Virus record (IMG/VR): IMGVR_UViG_3300037481_000168
Location: 1 to 34,876 of that record
Strand: one strand, 5' to 3'
Length of the DNA stretch: 34,876 nucleotides
Origin: a virus
Shown: piece after piece, positions 12,153 to 30,848 of the stretch
How the letters are laid out: the number at the start of each line of letters is the position of its first letter
Position numbering within the stretch: the first letter of the stretch is position 1
Translations under genes and position numbers: made by a program
Notes under the pieces: model-generated
Databases searched by the model: none
The model's input: the letters and a program-made list of their open reading frames with translations, nothing else
Told to the model about the DNA's origin: nothing

Positions 12153-12946
12153 CAGAAGTTCTCCGAGAGAAGGTTGAAGTTTGCGGTTTCAGGGAACGGC
12201 TGCACGAAAAACACGTGCGCAGCGACAAACCCGAGCGTCGGAGTAAATCCGATCATCACGTCACCTTGCGACGTTCTGCGCGGCTGCTGCACCATGTGGA
12301 AGTCATTCCGAAACTCAAACTCATGCGAGATTGAAAACAAGCCCGTTCCCACGCGCGAACTGTTCGCGCCCTTGTACAGAAGCGTACCCGTAGCAAACCC
12401 CTCAAATTGCGAGTTGTTGCGCTTGCCGATCATCGTTGCGATGGTCTGTAGCCTTCCGGATACAGTCGGCTCTAGCACCGTCTCGACAAGGCCAATCGTA
12501 ATCACCAGCGAAAGCAGCGATGTTGGGTTGCCACCGGAATCTAAGGACGTGCCGCCAATGTCTGCGCCGTTTGATCCGTTGCCGTTGTACCCGCTTGGAA
12601 CGTTGACGCGGTACACGTCGCGGAACACCGCTTGCGTGTTGACCGTGCGCTCCACGTACCCCGTATCGTTCGCGCTAAGCGTGTTGCGGCCATACTGCCA
12701 CGTGACCTTCCACGTGTTCGCGCCGTCTCCTAGCGGATCGACGGCGTACGTGATTGCGTAGACGTTCGACTCTCCCGGAAACAGGTCGCCCTTGGCGGGC
12801 ATTCCGTTCGCGCCGAGTTCGATGGCCGCAGGGCTGGTGATTGCGGCGGACTCGTCCCACACGTGGAACACGCGCGAACCCGTCACCTTGCCGCCGGAGA
12901 CGGACAGATTTCGAGACTGCAACTGCTCGTACACGGTCTGCGCCAT
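12152..12946 (-). CDS. Minor tail-region protein, 264 aa
   Basis: ATG 12946 overlaps the tape-measure stop by one base. Begins MAQTVYEQLQSRNLSVSGGK. Beta-rich throughout with many Gly, Asn and Thr (SRVFHVWDESAAITSPAAIE, VYAITYAVDPLGDGANTWKV, VAAHVFFVQPFPETANFNLL). Directly follows the tape measure, the place of distal-tail proteins in lambda-like modules; the distal-tail assignment is positional. Confidence 0.6.
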   Translation of the reverse strand: MAQTVYEQLQSRNLSVSGGKVTGSRVFHVWDESAAITSPAAIELGANGMPAKGDLFPGESNVYAITYAVDPLGDGANTWKVTWQYGRNTLSANDTGYVERTVNTQAVFRDVYRVNVPSGYNGNGSNGADIGGTSLDSGGNPTSLLSLVITIGLVETVLEPTVSGRLQTIATMIGKRNNSQFEGFATGTLLYKGANSSRVGTGLFSISHEFEFRNDFHMVQQPRRTSQGDVMIGFTPTLGFVAAHVFFVQPFPETANFNLLSENF

Positions 12947-14220
12947 TACGAAAACACCGCCTCTTTCGTGATCTTGATTTGCTCTTCGATACCAGAGACG
13001 ATACGGCGCAGCGCTTCGACTGCGGATTCGTCGTTCTTCTTGCGTTCTGCGTCAGAGTACGCCGCGAATTTGAATTCACCGATAGCCGTGTCAACGCTGC
13101 CAACACGCGCGGAAGAGCGGCTTTCCTTGTCGGCTTGCTCAATTGCGGAAAGCCGTTCTTGTTCTAGCCGGCCGACTTCCTTTTCTTGATCTGCTTCAAA
13201 CTTCATCACGTCTTTGATGAGTTGCCGTTTTTCGTTGGCATTCTTCTCTCTGAGTGCTTCTGCTTCTGCTTGTGTCCGGTCTTTGATTGCGTCCTCTTCG
13301 GCTTTCCGCTTCTTCTCAATTGCTTCAAGTTCAAAATTCAACTCTTGCCGTCGAATCTCTCGCTTGATGTCTTGAACTCTAACGAATGCGTCGAATTCTT
13401 CGCGCGGAAGTTCTTTTGCTTCCATCAATGCAAACTCTAGACGCTGCTCGTCACGAAACTTTGCAAAGTTGGCTAGGGCTATGGATTCTTCATTGCCTTT
13501 CTTACGTACCTCGTTCACCTTCAATTGAAACTTAAGTTTTTCTTCTTCAACGCGCAACCCCAAAGTACGGTCTTGCGATTCGCGTGTTTCGCCTTCTCGC
13601 TCTCTCGCAGCACGTACCATTTCATCTCTGGCAGCAATTTCCTTCTTCACAAGGTCATCCGCTGCCTTATCCGCAGCGCCAAACGTTGCGTCGTAGATTG
13701 CGTTACCTAGTTCAGCAAATGCGCCGACGAACGGTATTTGCTTGATGCCGTCTAGAATCGCCTCGTTCAACGGCTTTTCACTGCGGATGATTCCGGCAAG
13801 CGTTTTTGCCAACTGCGCGGCCATCATCGGCGCGGCAAAGTTCTTGAGAATCTCGCTGCCCTTCGCGCCAAAGTTCTTGCCGAAATCGATTCCCGCACTT
13901 GAACCAGCACCGCCGCCAACTGTTGAAACCGTGGTTTTGACAATCGGCGCAACTTGGCGCGGTAGTTTCTCCATTTCTCGCGTGATTTCTTGGCGAAAAG
14001 ATTCGCCCGCCGACTTCGCAGCGTTCTTGAACTCTTCCGCGATCTGCTTTGCAGCCGCTCCTACGTCTGTTGGCGCTTGCTGGATTTGTCCCGTCGCTTG
14101 CTGAAACGCGACAGCGGCGCGTTTGCCGGACTCGACGAACATAGCCTCCATCTTGGCGAGGCTTGCCTCCAGCGCCTTCATGTCGGCTTCGACGGATACT
14201 GAGAGATTGCCAGCGTTCAT
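12946..14220 (-). CDS. Tail tape-measure protein (short)
   Basis: 424 residues, mostly alpha-helical with long charged coils (about 190-400: KKEIAARDEMVRAAREREGE, EALREKNANEKRQLIKDVMK) and a Gly/Ala hydrophobic centre (TVGGGAGSSAGIDFG, KNFAAPMMAAQLAKTLAGII). Placed after the chaperone pair, as in lambda (H after G/GT). ATG 14220 overlaps the T-frame stop in ATGA. At about 0.15 nm per residue it predicts a tail of roughly 60-65 nm. The coil part is AT-richer than the flanks. Confidence 0.8.
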   Translation of the reverse strand: MNAGNLSVSVEADMKALEASLAKMEAMFVESGKRAAVAFQQATGQIQQAPTDVGAAAKQIAEEFKNAAKSAGESFRQEITREMEKLPRQVAPIVKTTVSTVGGGAGSSAGIDFGKNFGAKGSEILKNFAAPMMAAQLAKTLAGIIRSEKPLNEAILDGIKQIPFVGAFAELGNAIYDATFGAADKAADDLVKKEIAARDEMVRAAREREGETRESQDRTLGLRVEEEKLKFQLKVNEVRKKGNEESIALANFAKFRDEQRLEFALMEAKELPREEFDAFVRVQDIKREIRRQELNFELEAIEKKRKAEEDAIKDRTQAEAEALREKNANEKRQLIKDVMKFEADQEKEVGRLEQERLSAIEQADKESRSSARVGSVDTAIGEFKFAAYSDAERKKNDESAVEALRRIVSGIEEQIKITKEAVFS

Positions 14221-14417
14221 CGTTGTTCTACGTATCGGCGCATCCAGCCGCGTCCGTCATCCTGCGACGTGTTCCCGTGGCCTTCGATGGCATGGCGCAA
14301 GTGCGCGTCGAACTCCCAACACGCCAAATCGAATGGGTGACCTAGCCCCGGCGCGGCTCGCGCGATGATGTGCGCTTCCGCCACGACGTCGCGTTCCGAC
14401 GTGCGCGGCGCTAGGCG
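14217..14417 (-). CDS. Tail chaperone T-frame, read by -1 frameshift
   Basis: An open frame of 66 codons with no credible start of its own, in the -1 frame relative to gene 14411-14818. Ribosomes slipping at GGGAAAC (14417-14423) would continue with RLAPRTSERDVVAEAHIIAR and on to FDLACWEFDAHLRHAIEGHG and RRYVEQR, giving a product of about 200 aa. This is the lambda gpGT layout: long product from a slip just before the G stop, placed between G and the tape measure. The stop overlaps the tape-measure ATG. Confidence 0.8.
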   Translation of the reverse strand, partial: RLAPRTSERDVVAEAHIIARAAPGLGHPFDLACWEFDAHLRHAIEGHGNTSQDDGRGWMRRYVEQR

Positions 14418-14818
14418 TTTCCCGAGGTCGCCGTGTCTTCCTTGTCGAGTTGCTCCGTGTCGATGCCGAGCGCTTCTAGACAGGCTCGCGTAGCGTCACG
14501 GGGACTGCAAGACTCCACAAACTTGCAAGCGGAGTCCACGTCATCCCCAAGCACCACCGTGAGCACCCGTACCTGTCCCTGCACGGAGTAGCAATCGAGG
14601 TACAGCGAGGAGATAGCCGCCGCCTTGCGCCGCGCTTCTCCGATGTACTCTGCAAGGTCAACTGGCGGCAAGCCCGCCGCGCGGCCATCCTTTGCCGCGA
14701 CTTCCGCGCGTTCGTTGCTCAGGTCTTCCGAGAGCATCAAGCGCTCGCGCACCGTCAGCGGGCGCAGACGGAATCCGTTGCTACCAAGGTTCACAGTCCA
14801 TTCAGCACGTCGAATCAT
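14411..14818 (-). CDS. Tail assembly chaperone (gpG-like)
   Basis: 135 residues from ATG 14818 (ATGA overlap with the 90-aa gene). MIRRAEWTVNLGSNGFRLRP, LTVRERLMLSEDLSNERAEV and a cysteine-bearing helical domain (VQGQVRVLTVVLGDDVDSAC). Position between tail tube and tape measure and the frameshift near its end identify it by synteny with lambda gpG. A slip two codons before the TAG makes the gpGT-like form that would bind the tail tube and tape measure during assembly. No sequence family was needed for the call. Confidence 0.75.
   Translation of the reverse strand: MIRRAEWTVNLGSNGFRLRPLTVRERLMLSEDLSNERAEVAAKDGRAAGLPPVDLAEYIGEARRKAAAISSLYLDCYSVQGQVRVLTVVLGDDVDSACKFVESCSPRDATRACLEALGIDTEQLDKEDTATSGNA
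14417..14423 (-). other. Programmed -1 frameshift site GGGAAAC
   Basis: Minus-strand heptamer G GGA AAC in the frame of gene 14411-14818, matching X XXY YYZ (lambda uses GGGAAAG). Slipping gives GGG AAA and enters an open frame running to 14217. Confidence 0.8.
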
Positions 14819-15087
14819 TTTCGCATCCTCCGCATTCGTTCAAGAAACAGGTCGGCTCCGCTTGGCTCAATCGTCTTGTCGGAAGCTCGCCGCGCGGCGA
14901 GCCATTCGACCGCGTATATTGACTTGCGCTCCGCTGCCAGCGCGTAGTGGATCGCTTGATCTTCGGTAATCGTTCCCGGGCTGATTCGGCGTTGCCGAAT
15001 CACGCCGTCGCGGAAACGAATTGAAACCACCCAATCCGAATCGGACGGGTGGAAGACACTCGCAACGGCACCAAGTTGAGGGTTCAT
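14815..15087 (-). CDS. Small tail-module protein, 90 aa
   Basis: ATG 15087 lies two bases after the tail-tube stop; a TTG five codons earlier is the alternative. MNPQLGAVASVFHPSDSDWV, VSIRFRDGVIRQRRISPGTI, then a helical end (AIHYALAAERKSIYAVEWLA, LFLERMRRMRK). It lies between tail tube and chaperone gene. Probably a tail-assembly accessory; no family recognised. Confidence 0.6.
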   Translation of the reverse strand: MNPQLGAVASVFHPSDSDWVVSIRFRDGVIRQRRISPGTITEDQAIHYALAAERKSIYAVEWLAARRASDKTIEPSGADLFLERMRRMRK

Positions 15088-15089
15088 CG

Positions 15090-15506
15090 TCAGACGAGCC
15101 AAGTAATTACGGGCGCTGCGCCGTCACCGTTCGCAAAGTTGCAAGTCAACGTCGAGTCGCCCGTCTTGTCCACGTTGAATGCAAACCCGTTGAAGATGCA
15201 GTTTGCCGCGATCTGACAATCAGAAGTACCAGTGGTGTCGAACACCTTCAGCGTCAGCGCCGCCGTAGCGGTGCTGTGCAGAATGGTGGTGCTGTTCGTG
15301 GCAGTGCCAACGCCAGCAACGCCAGTGAGCGACCCCGTTACGTCAAGCATTCCAAGCCGCTTGCGTCGGCCAGTGTCGGCAAAGCCAGTCACTTCGCTTT
15401 CAACGCGCTCAAGCGTCGCAGCATAGGAACGGACTTGGAGGAGTTCAGCGCCGGAGGGGAGGGTAACCGCTCCGTCGTTTCCGATTGCATACGTGGTGAT
15501 TGCCAT
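15090..15506 (-). CDS. Major tail (tube) protein
   Basis: 138 residues, ATG 15506 with AGGAACACACC upstream. MAITTYAIGNDGAVTLPSGA, then a strand-helix-strand pattern of tail-tube proteins (VRSYAATLERVESEVTGFAD, KRLGMLDVTGSLTGVAG, ALTLKVFDTTGTSD, CNFANGDGAAPVITWLV). It follows the tail-completion gene and precedes the chaperones, the standard place for the tube subunit. Assignment from fold-like pattern and synteny. Confidence 0.7.
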   Translation of the reverse strand: MAITTYAIGNDGAVTLPSGAELLQVRSYAATLERVESEVTGFADTGRRKRLGMLDVTGSLTGVAGVGTATNSTTILHSTATAALTLKVFDTTGTSDCQIAANCIFNGFAFNVDKTGDSTLTCNFANGDGAAPVITWLV

Positions 15507-21567: not shown

Positions 21568-24047
21568 CGTTTTGCATCCTCTGCGTTGACTTCCGCTTGC
21601 GCTCGCGCAAGAGCGCCGGAATCCTCAATCTCGCGCGTGATCTCGTCCAACTCGCTGACCAGTTTCGGAATCATGGAGCATCGGCAGTTCGGGTGCAGCG
21701 GCGGCGCGGTCACGTCTTCAAAGTCAAGAACCATGCGTCCGCCGCCTGCGCCTGTCAGAACGTCGCCTTTCTTGTAGAACGTGTCGCGCAATCCAACCGA
21801 CTTGTTTTCAAATGACTTGGATACTGCCTCGCAGAATTGGCACGGGTCAGGCGCGAGAAGCCACGTCTTCCCTGTCACCAAACCTGTTGATTCCCACGCT
21901 TCCAACTCAGCGGAGCGAGCCGCTCGCATCGACTCCGTACGCGCGATGGTGGTAGCGCGTGACCAACTTCCGTCTTGGTCTTTCTGTCCGTCTGCCCACT
22001 CCTGTACGCGCGTTGCGAGTTGGTCGATGTTCTCGCCTTTCTCTAGTCCGTCGCCAAGAACGGTGCGCACCTTCTCCGTCTGCGTTTCGATTACGCCTTG
22101 CGCTGTGCGCCGTGACAACCGCACAGATTCCGTCTCCGCGTACTTGGCAAGGTCGGCGCGTTCCGCTTCAAAGTCCACCTGTGGCGCAATCTTCTCGACC
22201 GTCTCTACGCCGATTGTGATTCCGGTTTCGATGGCCTCGCGGATGTACGGGGTGAGCGCTTCCACGACGGCGCGTTGCGCGAGTCGGCTGCGCATGATGC
22301 GTTCGGCTTGCTGGATAAGTTCAACGCTTGGCCGTTCGGCGGCGGCCAGCGACGCTAGCAGTTCTTTCACCTGTCGATCAAACTCTTGCGAGATACGCGC
22401 TGCGGCCTCTTTCTCGCGCTTGGCAATCTTCGCGGCCTCGCGCTCAGCGTTCTTGGTCTTGAGCCACGCGCTGAATCCGCCGTCGTTGGATTCGTCTTTG
22501 TGCTTGCTGATGAAATCCGACTGCTTGACGGTCTTCGACGTTCCGCAGCCGCAGCCGCAAGCGTCCTTCCGCTGCACTGCCTTTGGCTCGACTTCGGGGG
22601 CGACTTCGGGGGCGACTTCCTCTTCCGCCAACTCTTCGGAGATGTTCTCTGTGGTTGCGAGTGGGCGGCTTGCCAGCGGCACAGTCGCGCTTGCGCCAAA
22701 CAGACCACCAAACGGTGATGGTGCGGGCTGACCGCCCAGCGGCTGTCCGTTGATGAGTAGCCGATTTGCGTTCTCGTCTGCAACCGGCTCTAGCCCCTCT
22801 TGCTCGCGGGCTTCGTTCGCCGTCAGGATGCCACCTTGCACGTAGGAAATCCGCTTGCTTGTTTCTGACGACTCATCCGCGCGTACGGGGTTGTCGTACG
22901 CCAAGAACGCATCGCCCTCAATTCCAAACAGCGGGACAAGGTTCTGATTCAGCACCTCTTCATCCATGCGGAGCATGGGGAGAATCGTTGTCTCCTTCCA
23001 CGTCGCAAAGCCAACCGTTGCGCTTGCAAGGTTCGGGTCATTCGCGCGAAGCATCGAAACGGGAACGCCAAACACAGCGGCGATTTCCTCAACGATCTCC
23101 TCGCGCCCCTGCAAATCCTTGGGCGGGAATTGCAGCGGCTTCAAGTCCACGTCACCAGTGATCGCAAGGAAGCGCCCAGTCTTGTTCGTACCGCGCAACT
23201 TCGTTTCGACTTGCGCCGTGAACCGCTCTAACTCTTCGTCGCTTGCGTCGCCCTTCGTCACCAAAAGGTAGTCCGGTCGGCTCTTGTTGGCGAAGAAGTG
23301 GTAATCCATTTCATGAAGCGCTTGGTTGCTAGTCACCGCGCCCCACGCGGCCTCAACCTTGCCGAGTCCGTAGTACAGGTCGCGCGGGTTCGGATACTTG
23401 AAGTGAATCACTTCATCCGGCGCGAAGTCTTGCCGCTGCGCATCATTGCGCCCGTACTCGTACGCCTTGATCCACGGCTCATCACGCAGCGGGTTTCCGG
23501 GAACGATCTTCACCCATTGCGGCGGCATCGTCCACAATTCCACCGGGACATTCAGCGCCGGATCAATCACCGGATGCAGATATGCGTTGCCCGTCAACTC
23601 AGCGTATAGCACACGCAGGACGGTTGCATCGAATCCGTTCTGATATGGGTTGACCTTCGACAGGAGTTCCAAGAGCGGGTGCGCGTCCGTGACGATTTCG
23701 TAATCGTCCCCGAACTCCGCTGCCTTGGTCATCGCGTAGCGCGACGGGTGCTGGCCGAGGTCGCCGGACAGATACGCCTTCGTGCGACGTCCCGTCCTGC
23801 GTGTGTTCCATAAGCGCTTTGCGCCTTCGCGTCGGCGCACGTACAAGCGCAACGGCGCAGATGCCACGGCTACAGCGTTCAGCCGCGCGGCAGCGTAAAT
23901 CCACGAACGGCATTCGATTACCGCTTGGTGGTAGTTGAACGGCGGCGGCACGTAGTTGCGACCGATCAACGTTGCAGTCGATGCGGCCTCGTATCGGCTT
24001 GGCTTGTCTGTGGTGAATGCGGCTTTGATTCGATCAATGATTTTCAT
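21564..24047 (-). CDS. Portal protein fused to MuF-type head morphogenesis domain
   Basis: 827 residues, ATG 24047 (ATGA with terminase). Residues about 1-440 are an HK97-type portal (HQAVIECRSWIYAAARLNAV, NPYQNGFDATVLRVLYAELT, GNAYLHPV, GREEIVEEIAAVFGVPVSML). A Glu/Pro linker carries a Cys cluster CGCGCG (497-502), then a coil (530-600). Residues about 690-795 match MuF/SPP1 gp7-like ends: TTIARTESMRAARSAELEAW, APDPCQFCE, PPLHPNCRC (C736, C739, H785, C788, C790, zinc-like). Usually two genes; here one chain. Confidence 0.85.
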   Translation of the reverse strand: MKIIDRIKAAFTTDKPSRYEAASTATLIGRNYVPPPFNYHQAVIECRSWIYAAARLNAVAVASAPLRLYVRRREGAKRLWNTRRTGRRTKAYLSGDLGQHPSRYAMTKAAEFGDDYEIVTDAHPLLELLSKVNPYQNGFDATVLRVLYAELTGNAYLHPVIDPALNVPVELWTMPPQWVKIVPGNPLRDEPWIKAYEYGRNDAQRQDFAPDEVIHFKYPNPRDLYYGLGKVEAAWGAVTSNQALHEMDYHFFANKSRPDYLLVTKGDASDEELERFTAQVETKLRGTNKTGRFLAITGDVDLKPLQFPPKDLQGREEIVEEIAAVFGVPVSMLRANDPNLASATVGFATWKETTILPMLRMDEEVLNQNLVPLFGIEGDAFLAYDNPVRADESSETSKRISYVQGGILTANEAREQEGLEPVADENANRLLINGQPLGGQPAPSPFGGLFGASATVPLASRPLATTENISEELAEEEVAPEVAPEVEPKAVQRKDACGCGCGTSKTVKQSDFISKHKDESNDGGFSAWLKTKNAEREAAKIAKREKEAAARISQEFDRQVKELLASLAAAERPSVELIQQAERIMRSRLAQRAVVEALTPYIREAIETGITIGVETVEKIAPQVDFEAERADLAKYAETESVRLSRRTAQGVIETQTEKVRTVLGDGLEKGENIDQLATRVQEWADGQKDQDGSWSRATTIARTESMRAARSAELEAWESTGLVTGKTWLLAPDPCQFCEAVSKSFENKSVGLRDTFYKKGDVLTGAGGGRMVLDFEDVTAPPLHPNCRCSMIPKLVSELDEITREIEDSGALARAQAEVNAEDAKR

Positions 24048-25222
24048 ATGACTCTCATCGTCATCGGTCGCCGCGTTCTGCGGGCGTACACGGCGAGCGC
24101 AAGAGCGCACACGCCGTCATCGTGACCCGCCGTAGCCTCGTAGGAGACGTGTCTCCCTGAGTATCGGTATCCGAAGGATTCCAATTCCGCCCGCAACCAC
24201 CCATCCGGGAAGCGAATATCGCGCGTCTGTATCGCAATCTGCAATCCCTCCATGAGTTGTTGTTTGCTTGGCGATGTGAATTTGAAGCCTTCGACGCGAC
24301 GGCACACGCGCTGGAGGTCTTCAACGATTGGATCGCCTACGCCAGTTGAGTCGATCTGTGCAGGTTTCTCTGCTATCAGATGTGCGAGTCGCTCTTTTGT
24401 CACAAGCCACGGCGCTTGCCAGCGCTCCAGTTGGCACACCGCGCCGTCCGCGTCGAGTCCTACGGCAACCGTGAAGTCGTGGCTCTTCGCAAGATCGACC
24501 CCCCAACAGGCGACCTTGCCTTTGGAGAGTTCACCAATGCACTCGCGGATTGCGTCAAGCCCGAACGGGTTGCCGCCGTCCTCTGCGGGAATGCCCTCGT
24601 ACTCCTGTGCGAAGACTTCCGGCGGCAGCGAGCGCCGCGCGTCCTCCACCTCGTCCGCGTCAATGTGCGGATTGTGGCGCGTTCCAATGCGGAAGGCTCG
24701 CATTGTGCCAGTGGTGTCACCTTCCGCTTCTGTGAACAGGCGGTGGAAGTCCCCCGTGCCTTTCGGCGTGCCGAGAAAGAGCGCTGTCCCCTTGCGGTCG
24801 GATAGCGTCGGTCGCGCCGCGTTGCGCCACCATTCCAGCAACTTCGGCACGAAGCCAGCCTCGTCCACGACGATCAGGTCGTAGTCGCGCCCACGCCCTG
24901 CGTCGATGTCTTCCAGCGACCAGAAGTCAATGACGCCGCCGGTGACCAGTTGCAATCGTTTCTCTACGCGGTCGAGTGTCTTGGTGACGGGCGCGAGCGC
25001 TTCCACCATGTCGCGCATCGGGTCGGCAAGGTACTTGTACGTGGGCGCGAACCAGCCGACCTTGCCACGCTTGATCGCGCGGCGCATGGCCTTGATTCGT
25101 CCGTATGTTGTCTTGCCCCAGCGGCGACCAATCTCAAGGACGCTGAACCGCGCCAATTGCGCATCCACTGCGACTTGGCTTGGGTGCAGTACGGAGGAGA
25201 GCGGGCGCAGTTGGATTTTCAC
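24044..25222 (-). CDS. terL: Terminase large subunit
   Basis: 392 residues, ATG 25222 (ATGA). ATPase: Walker A-like GRRWGKT at 32-38, Walker B DLIVVDE at 115-121, coupling motif GTPKGT at 151-156. RNase H-like nuclease: GVDLAKSHD (D243), IDSTGVGD (D291) and GHDDGV (D368, D369). It drives DNA into the prohead and cuts the concatemer. It is shorter than many (about 450-550) but all motifs are present. Confidence 0.93.
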   Translation of the reverse strand: MKIQLRPLSSVLHPSQVAVDAQLARFSVLEIGRRWGKTTYGRIKAMRRAIKRGKVGWFAPTYKYLADPMRDMVEALAPVTKTLDRVEKRLQLVTGGVIDFWSLEDIDAGRGRDYDLIVVDEAGFVPKLLEWWRNAARPTLSDRKGTALFLGTPKGTGDFHRLFTEAEGDTTGTMRAFRIGTRHNPHIDADEVEDARRSLPPEVFAQEYEGIPAEDGGNPFGLDAIRECIGELSKGKVACWGVDLAKSHDFTVAVGLDADGAVCQLERWQAPWLVTKERLAHLIAEKPAQIDSTGVGDPIVEDLQRVCRRVEGFKFTSPSKQQLMEGLQIAIQTRDIRFPDGWLRAELESFGYRYSGRHVSYEATAGHDDGVCALALAVYARRTRRPMTMRVI

Positions 25223-27733: not shown

Positions 27734-28951
27734 TCAGTAGGAGTTGAAGCCCGTCACATTGAGCAGGATGTTTGATGCGGTCGTGCCCGCGGTGTAGTTC
27801 AGCGCGGCGTTTGCCGTGCCGCGCAAGGGAGTCGGGAAGGTGAGTTGCTGCGCGAGCGTCATGCTCGCGGGAACCGAGATCGCGATGAGCGTGGCCGACG
27901 CGTCTTGGATCGTCAGTGTGGTCGCGGTCGCGCTGGTGTTCTGGTAGGTGATCTGCGTCACATTCTGGCGGATGTCTGTTCCCTGCGCGGCGCGGATCGC
28001 GGTCTGCGTGGCCGTCGTGACGGTCGTGTTGACGATGAAGTCGAGGTCGCCCGGCGCGAAGTCCTTGCAGACGAGTTGACCGCTGCGCGAGAATGTCGAT
28101 CGCACGGCGTCGCCCGCGACCACTGTCGCAGCGGGGAGCGCGGTTCGCACCACGCCGCCGATGATGAGCGGGTTTGCCGTCGAGGCCGTGTCCTCGGCGA
28201 CGATCGCGCCCGCGCCGACCTGGTTGATGTTGAACGCGGTGTTCGCCGCGATGTTCGGACTCGACGCGGGGAAGAACGCGGGCTGATTCTTGAGGACGCC
28301 GACCGCGACCGCGTTGCCGCTGGTGTAAGTCGAGAAGCGGACGCGGAAGTACCGACCGACGCACGGGAACACCCAATGTCCGTTCGCGGTGACGGTCGTG
28401 ATCGGCGTAGCCGCTCCAGCGACAGCCCATCCCGCGACCGAAGACCATGTCGTGCTGTCGTTCGAAATCTCGAATGTCTGCGTTCCCGCCCATGTCCCCG
28501 TCATCTGCACGACGATTGAGTTGTAGCCCGTCGTCTCGACCATCCACAGCGTACCGAGAGCCGAGCGCGAGCGTTGGACGATCTCCTGATCGCTCGGCAC
28601 GACATGGCCGCGCGGGTTGACGCAAAGCCCCTTCTTGTTTCCGTGCGGATCGACGCCGCCGACGCGCGTGAAGCCGTTCTCTTCCTCGGCTTCCTCAACG
28701 ATTACCTGTAGAACATCCGACGCGCTGTGCGTCGAGGTGTCGAGGTCGAGCGTGAGCGTGTTCGTGACCTCGTTGTAGCCCGCCGAACCCCTCGTCGTGC
28801 TGTTGAACTGGTACACGACGATGCCGCGCGTGACATTCGTGACGATCTGGATGTTCTCGAAGGTCGGCGGTTCTCCGCGGAAAGCGATCGTTCCCGCGCC
28901 CGCTGCGCCCGGCGTAAACACGAAGTCGGTACGGTCGAGGATTCTCTTCAT
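27734..28951 (-). CDS. Virion appendage protein, 405 aa
   Basis: ATG 28951 (ATGA overlap with the fibre gene). [80 protein letters not shown] and many Thr-rich strands. The [19 protein letters not shown] part is like beta-sandwich modules in phage baseplate and fibre proteins. Probably works with the fibre encoded upstream in host contact. Confidence 0.6.
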
Positions 28952-30504
28952 AGTGCCACCGCCAATGCAACCGCGTCCTCTTCGGACAATCCGCCGCTGG
29001 TCGGCGTCGCCCACGATGCGTTCGTGCCGTCAGTCGTCAGCACCTGTCCGACGCTGCCCGCCGTCGCGGGCAGGTCGAACCCGCCGCTCGGGCTTTCGAT
29101 GCGGACAGCCGACGCGCCCTTGATGCGAAGTTTGCCCGCGCCCGATTCAATCACGCCGTCCGTTTGATCGTGCGAAACCCGCACGTAGTCATTCGCTTGC
29201 GCTCCGTCTGACGAGTACACGTAGAACGTCGGATCAACGTGCTCCGTCGCGGGCGAGCGGTTCGCAACGCCGACGTGGGATTGGTTGCAGACGACAACTG
29301 CCGCGCTGCGTCCTGCGGCAGTCGATGGCGCGAGCTGAAACGTCTTGTTCCCCGTCGTGGTGACGCGCATCACAACTTCCGCGTTGTTGCCGTAGACGGT
29401 GTTTACGTCCGACACAATCGCCAACTGCGTCTCGTACTGAATGTACGAGCCAGCAGGGTTCTTCGCGCCGTCGCTTGATCGGATTACGCCCATGCGAGCG
29501 CCGACGGTGAACGAGGTGAAATCCATGTACACGCCGAACGCATTCGCGGCGACGGGCGCAGGCATGAAGTCCATTTGCCCGTTCGTCGTGTTGCGAATCA
29601 ATTCTCCGTTTGGAGTGAACGCAACCGAACCAACGGTGACGGTATCTGACAGCGGATCAAACGTGAATCCGGAATCTCCAGCAATTATGCCGGAGTCGTT
29701 GTACATCACTTGCCCTGATGAGCCAGCCGCAGGATTCGCACCGAATCCGACAACGCCGCCAGCACGACGAAGCACCTGTCCGTCTGCGGTCGCCGCAATG
29801 TCAGCAGGCGCACCGCTAGTTGCTGCGCTTCGGCCAATCACAGAACTTGCCGTGCGGGTTGAAATGGACAACGTAGCGCCGCCGGGAATCAGCTCTTGCA
29901 GTACGAAATCTGAAGACAGTGCTATCTGCTCTGGATCTCCGGTTCCGACCGCCGCGCGACCGAGCAACGTTGCAGTCGCCATGTCTGGCAACTTCGCGTA
30001 CGTCACCGCGCCGTTTTGGATCTTCGCGGTCTCGACTGCGTCTGTGTCGATTTGCAGCGCTTGCACCGCACCGTTTGCAATTTGCGCGGTATCGACCGCC
30101 TTGCTGCCGATCTTCGTGTTCGTCACAGCGCCCGCGTCAATCGTCCACGTCGCGCCGCTGCCCGAGACGGTTATGTCGCCCTTGTCGCCGTCAGTCAAGC
30201 CCACAGCGGTCGCGCTCAGGGTCGTACCCGTCATGGCAAGACCCGTGCCAAGCGCGATCTCTTCCACGTCACCCGCGACCGTCGCGCCGCGCCCGAGCAG
30301 CACGCTCGCCGCTGTCGTGTCCTGCAATTTCGCGTACCCGATTGCACCCGGCGCTACGGTGGGATTCGGATACGAACCCGTCAGGTCGCCGCCAGCCGCG
30401 CCCGTGGGAATCGTTGACACGTTGGAGATGGTGACAACTTTCTGAACTGGCGCGACCGTGACAGCCTTCACCACTGGCGAAATTGTCACGCTCGCATTGC
30501 TCAT
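28948..30504 (-). CDS. Tail fibre-like protein, 518 aa
   Basis: ATG 30504 (ATGA, GGAGG upstream). [20 protein letters not shown] is a typical fibre repeat. Residues about 120-190 hold 10-11-residue repeats ([38 protein letters not shown]), a triple-stranded beta pattern. [19 protein letters not shown] near the end is another fibre module; no peptidase-like auto-cleavage domain is evident. Likely the main host-recognition fibre. Confidence 0.75.
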
Positions 30505-30848
30505 CTCGTCACCTCCGGCACAACCACGAACGAACCACGCACGGGGGAAATCACTACTGGCGGGGAAGCGGCGTTGAAGAACTCCAAATCCCACACCCCG
30601 CTATTTGGCGCAGCGAACGCAGCGGTAGCCGTGGACGTGATCGTAAGTATCGCGGTGGATGCCGTCGCACCGGGCGTAAGCACAATCCCCGCCGCTGGTG
30701 AACTGGTGAGGCTGAACAGCGTTGCCGTGGCCTCAAACGTCTCCCGGCCTTGCGCTCGCGCTTGGTAGCCCGTCAAGTCGGCTTCGTACGTGACAGTAAG
30801 CGTCTCCGTTTCGCCTTGCTTGATAGTCCAATCATACTCAGCGCTCAT
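30501..30848 (-). CDS. Ig/BppU-N-like virion protein, 115 aa
   Basis: ATG 30848, six bases after [65 protein letters not shown] resemble the small beta domain (LTGYxARxQ motif) that often precedes fibre genes and resembles the N-terminal part of baseplate upper proteins. Probable fibre attachment or baseplate part. Confidence 0.65.

Follow-up and report, generated by a model that had tools for sequence, protein, structure and literature searches.

The sequence analysed here (the window) is positions 1 to 34,876 of the IMG/VR virus record IMGVR_UViG_3300037481_000168, which comes from an uncultivated phage. The genes discussed below are on the minus strand, a point that was left unmentioned in the first-pass annotation, whose coordinates and counts were right. 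The region contains, in this order, a putative major tail protein of 138 aa (15090..15506), a small gene of 95 aa (14815..15102), a tail assembly chaperone-like gene of 135 aa running from ATG to TAG (14411..14818, named G), an open stretch in the −1 frame (14217..14417, named T) and a putative short tape measure protein of 424 aa (12946..14220).

The 3′ end of the G gene reads ACC TCG GGA AAC GCC TAG. The heptamer GGGAAAC (14423-14417) is in X_XXY_YYZ phase (G_GGA_AAC) and is followed by GCC and then by the zero-frame stop TAG (14411..14413), which starts 3 nt past the heptamer. The first-pass annotation had claimed a slippery site two codons before the stop, in the correct frame, and this was confirmed. 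After a −1 slip, reading would continue with CGC CTA and stay open for 66 codons up to the TGA at 14219-14217, again as claimed. The predicted fusion is 134 + 66 = 200 aa long, in line with the product of about 200 aa given earlier, and would read ...TSGN/RLAPR... across the junction. There is a 4-nt overlap between the T stop and the ATG (14220) with which the next ORF begins. The overlap reported earlier therefore stands, as an overlap with a putative tape measure gene. The statement that the −1 frame lacks a start held in part: no ORF of at least 60 aa in this frame is present in the ORF list of the window, but a GTG occurs 13 codons into it. A hairpin is predicted at 14379..14410. Its stem begins 6 nt after the heptamer, directly after the stop.

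The putative gene order fits that of G/GT chaperones, except that one extra gene, of 95 aa, separates the putative major tail protein from G. This small gene had no PHROG or Pfam match. It is conserved in the relatives whose contigs reach that far, with 36-59% identity in the fuller matches. The 138-aa protein of the window had no family match of its own; in three of seven relatives, its counterpart matched phrog_10528 ‘major tail protein’ weakly (best E 0.0011). The 424-aa protein had no family match either and is called a tape measure because of its place. In relatives, the putative tape measure proteins (taken as the longest ORF near the T stop) were short, 332-450 aa in the 24 clusters (of 27) that have a complete ORF, which would suggest short tails.

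Single-sequence searches with G found no relative in the phages, genome_contigs or viral_contigs sets. Relatives were reached through the capsid protein, a search with which gave 18 loci. In the eight of these that include the G region, the in-frame heptamer is always GGGAAAC or GGGAAAT and is separated from the stop by 0 or 3 nt. A search with a G alignment then gave 76 loci, six of which were dropped since their G is truncated at the edge of the contig. T was in the −1 frame in 71/71 loci (the 70 with a complete G plus the window), which form 27 clusters at 90% identity. For the scan with a T alignment, the best 80 of 124 relatives were kept. The pooled set, window included, comprised 148 loci with a T match, 147 of them with G upstream, in 38 clusters at 90% identity. 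A contig found in both scans enters this set two times, so that the 38 clusters are a fairer number than the 147 loci. Locus L098, with a weak T score (12.9) and no G, was considered a weak chance match and not a relative. Three matches came from genome_contigs. One is L098; the other two, L096 (Proteobacteria MAG) and L097 (Rhodobacteraceae MAG), have a G-T junction and could be phage contigs that were binned with the MAGs, so that no host is assigned. Cultured relatives were also sought in phage records: neither the T of locus L034 nor the major tail protein of locus L016 had a relative there, and the terminase and portal had distant relatives only.

T was in the −1 frame relative to G in all 147 loci that have both regions (38 clusters). 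An in-frame XXXYYYZ heptamer was present in 37 of the 38 clusters: GGGAAAN in 35, AAACCCT in two and none in one. The last base of GGGAAAN was C in 26 clusters, A in six, G in two and T in one. The distance from heptamer to stop was 0 nt in 14 clusters and 3 nt in 19 (33/38 together); in L050, L063, L095 and L166, the heptamer lies 12-54 nt before the stop. The motif is rare in the rest of G: in 27 clusters, with the last 60 nt excluded, GGGAAAN was found in frame at 1/3003 codon positions, and 25/27 of the same clusters have it near the gene end. T is itself a conserved family, with a motif around ARxxPGLGNPLDL...EF in both T alignments. The first-pass annotation had named conservation of the heptamer and open frame in relatives as the check, and stops in the −1 frame or a missing slippery site as what would speak against frameshifting. 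The frame was kept throughout, and the single exception for the slippery site is one contig (L049/L118).

For RNA structure, the 50 nt starting at +4 after the heptamer were folded. The window hairpin has an MFE of −23.5 kcal/mol in this 50-nt region, with the first pairs 6 nt downstream of the heptamer (the first 4 nt being kept free), and the region was more stable than a synonymous-codon control (z −2.14, p 0.027). Against dinucleotide shuffles, the mean z over clusters was −1.89, with 20 of 27 clusters below −1. Against synonymous-codon shuffles of the −1 frame, it was −2.02, with p ≤ 0.05 in 14 of 27. The combined Fisher p for the synonymous control (9e-15) is too small, since the clusters are related but enter it as independent. 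When 36-nt windows were slid along the junction, the mean MFE reached its minimum 0 to +6 nt past the heptamer (−14.7 and −15.1) and was about −7 to −11.4 elsewhere between −90 and +150. In 24/38 clusters, the site ranked in the bottom 5% of control positions; in this analysis, where the first bases may pair, the first paired base was at 0 to 6 nt. In five clusters (L050, L051, L059, L074 and L075), the 50 nt were hardly or not at all more stable than dinucleotide shuffles (z −0.92 to +1.44), and L097 and L143 were unremarkable among control positions. Across clusters, the elements of a −1 frameshift signal were all found: an X_XXY_YYZ heptamer, a short spacer and downstream structure beyond controls.

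The 135-aa gene is very probably a predicted tail assembly chaperone G in which a minority of ribosomes slip by −1 at G_GGA_AAC to make a 200-aa G-T protein. Most ribosomes would stop at the TAG. A minority would slip back one base at the heptamer, just before this stop, and would go on to make the fusion; presumably, the Gly tRNA in the P site and the Asn tRNA in the A site slip in tandem, with the hairpin assisting. By analogy with lambda, many copies of G would coat the tape measure protein and a few copies of G-T would recruit the major tail protein.

Other origins for the T frame were weighed against this reading. T might be a small gene in its own right, with an internal start or with termination-reinitiation at the G stop, and the heptamer might be incidental. 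Possible starts early in the −1 frame are indeed present (the GTG at codon 13 in the window and an ATG in L020, L021, L045 and L075), but they vary in position and type, in contrast to the conserved heptamer and its conserved phase. Moreover, in 12 of 27 clusters the stretch from the heptamer to the conserved T motif contains no ATG, GTG or TTG, and in seven of these 12 the 60 nt upstream contain none in the same frame either. A conserved internal start thus does not explain T, and we consider a separate gene very unlikely. Slippage of RNA polymerase instead of the ribosome is more improbable still. An mRNA that had gained one base or lost two would account for the frame relation taken by itself, but the site consists of three G and three A only, and longer homopolymer runs are needed for transcriptional slippage. 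Polymerase slippage would also leave the strict X_XXY_YYZ phase and the hairpin unexplained. Finally, two adjoining pieces in different frames are what a sequencing error or a decayed gene would produce by splitting one ORF. Against this, the same split occurs at the same place and with the same frame relation in 147/147 loci from many metagenomes. Differences between similar T sequences also fell at codon positions 1, 2 and 3 of the −1 frame in the numbers 205, 104 and 667 (93 non-independent pairs; the pair L072/L077 was not used because it was misaligned in the ungapped comparison). This pattern fits translation of the −1 frame and, as far as sequence comparison tells, T is under protein-level constraint. 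An artefactual or decayed ORF is accordingly given hardly any weight.

The frameshifting could also be real and the proteins do another job in the virion or its assembly. In favour of this alternative, these proteins are weakly linked by sequence to known tail chaperones. G and T of the window alone had no PHROG or Pfam family. Among the G members, six of 27 matched phrog_344 ‘tail assembly chaperone’ weakly (best E 0.0011); the T members had nothing in PHROG beyond one chance-level HNH match, and all G and T members together had nothing convincing in Pfam. The AlphaFold model of G (mean pLDDT 93.0) has an N-terminal beta hairpin and helices; that of T has a mean pLDDT of 72.5. A PDB fold search with the G model gave no match at E ≤ 0.001, and YqbN (3klu), which we take to be a prophage tail chaperone, aligned with only Z 4.0 and rmsd 3.1 over 77 residues. 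In BFVD, the best matches to the G model were uncharacterized phage proteins (E 6e-4). A function was named in 12 of the first 50 matches, and 10 of these 12 were tail, tail assembly or pre-tape-measure frameshift proteins, mostly with E above 0.01. They include the ‘Pre-tape measure frameshift protein G’ of Xylella phage Sano; the chaperone of Arthrobacter phage Faja also matched (E 0.04, prob 0.90). The gene order, the phrog_344 matches and these BFVD fold matches to predicted phage tail chaperones argue against another job, which we regard as improbable, and from them we infer a gpGT-like role in tail assembly. The lambda G/GT arrangement proposed by the first-pass annotation is likewise supported by the heptamer, the conserved −1 frame and the gene order, with the chaperone role being deduced.

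The slippery site of lambda is GGGAAAG. Lambda and the window are alike in that the gene before the (putative) tape measure gene has a GGGAAAN-type heptamer near its end, at which a −1 frameshift (predicted here) extends G by a small T domain. They differ in that the heptamer of the window is GGGAAAC, with the zero-frame stop 3 nt later. The likeness is one of arrangement and site, not of sequence relation to lambda G or T. According to the sections of PMC5009743 available, in which lambda gpG/gpGT are described, low-level frameshifting from G into T is widely conserved in phages with long tails, G/GT chaperones of different phages normally share little similarity and G_GGA_AAG is highly shift-prone in E. 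coli. The g-t genes of the haloarchaeal virus HCTV-1 are reported to use the same heptamer as the window, G_GGA_AAC (same sections of PMC5009743); HCTV-1 is an archaeal virus and its likeness to the window is one of heptamer. The SEA-PHAGES data used for PRFect comprise 2397 annotated chaperones, and most annotated phages there have frameshifted chaperone genes (PMC10885494, in extract). In that set, the slippery site and the zero-frame stop lie on average 26 nt apart (same extract of PMC10885494), in contrast to the 0 or 3 nt seen in most clusters here. Values of 6-7% were measured for two tail-chaperone genes (PMC3711429, in extract).

As mechanism, place and heptamer are already known, the present family adds a member to the lambda G/GT kind. 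This member is an uncultivated phage group whose chaperones have no match in the phage records searched. Its diverged junctions allow a comparison of heptamer, distance to the stop and hairpin. T would probably be missed by annotation pipelines in which frameshifts are not modelled.

The departures from GGGAAAN are grouped in the tree. In L035 (at 1872-1878) and in L096 (directly ahead of the G stop at about 3525), an in-frame AAACCCT stands instead of GGGAAAN, with 3 nt from AAACCCT to the stop in both; in L035, the hairpin starts 6 nt after AAACCCT. The letters GGCAAAC or AGAAAC lie next to AAACCCT in these junctions. L049/L118, which are one contig, have no XXXYYYZ heptamer; GGGAGAT is found in the homologous place (L049 3096-3123), and no strong hairpin was found in L049 (z +0.87, dinucleotide shuffles). 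L049 could reflect decay, another mechanism or an assembly error. In the tree of the 38 clusters, L049, L035 and L096 form one clade (98/95 support) nested among GGGAAAN users. We hypothesize a single change of slippery site in this clade as the simplest reading. Tentatively, and with slightly less than even confidence, we propose that an ancestral GGGAAAN was replaced in the L035 cluster/L096 clade, to which L049 is sister, by A_AAC_CCT, with a CCC-type A-site codon. Such a replacement would have moved the slippery site by three bases while keeping the fusion, so that the clade would be a natural experiment in which a frameshift site changes without loss of the fusion. It is the one possible novelty of this family. 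In a literature search for A_AAC_CCT as a slippery site, the occurrences checked, in the excerpts returned, were an incidental stretch or an entry in a promoter table.

Some other genes of the window were also noted, all on the minus strand. The terminase large subunit (24044-25222) had Halorubrum phage Hardycor1 as the first among the phage matches listed (36% identity). The 548-aa ORF at 28948-30594 has a DUF5907 repeat, and a short part of it resembles cyanophage tail proteins. The 848-aa ORF at 21564-24110 matches a phage portal family, its C-terminal part matches Phage_Mu_F, and it is apparently a portal-MuF fusion.
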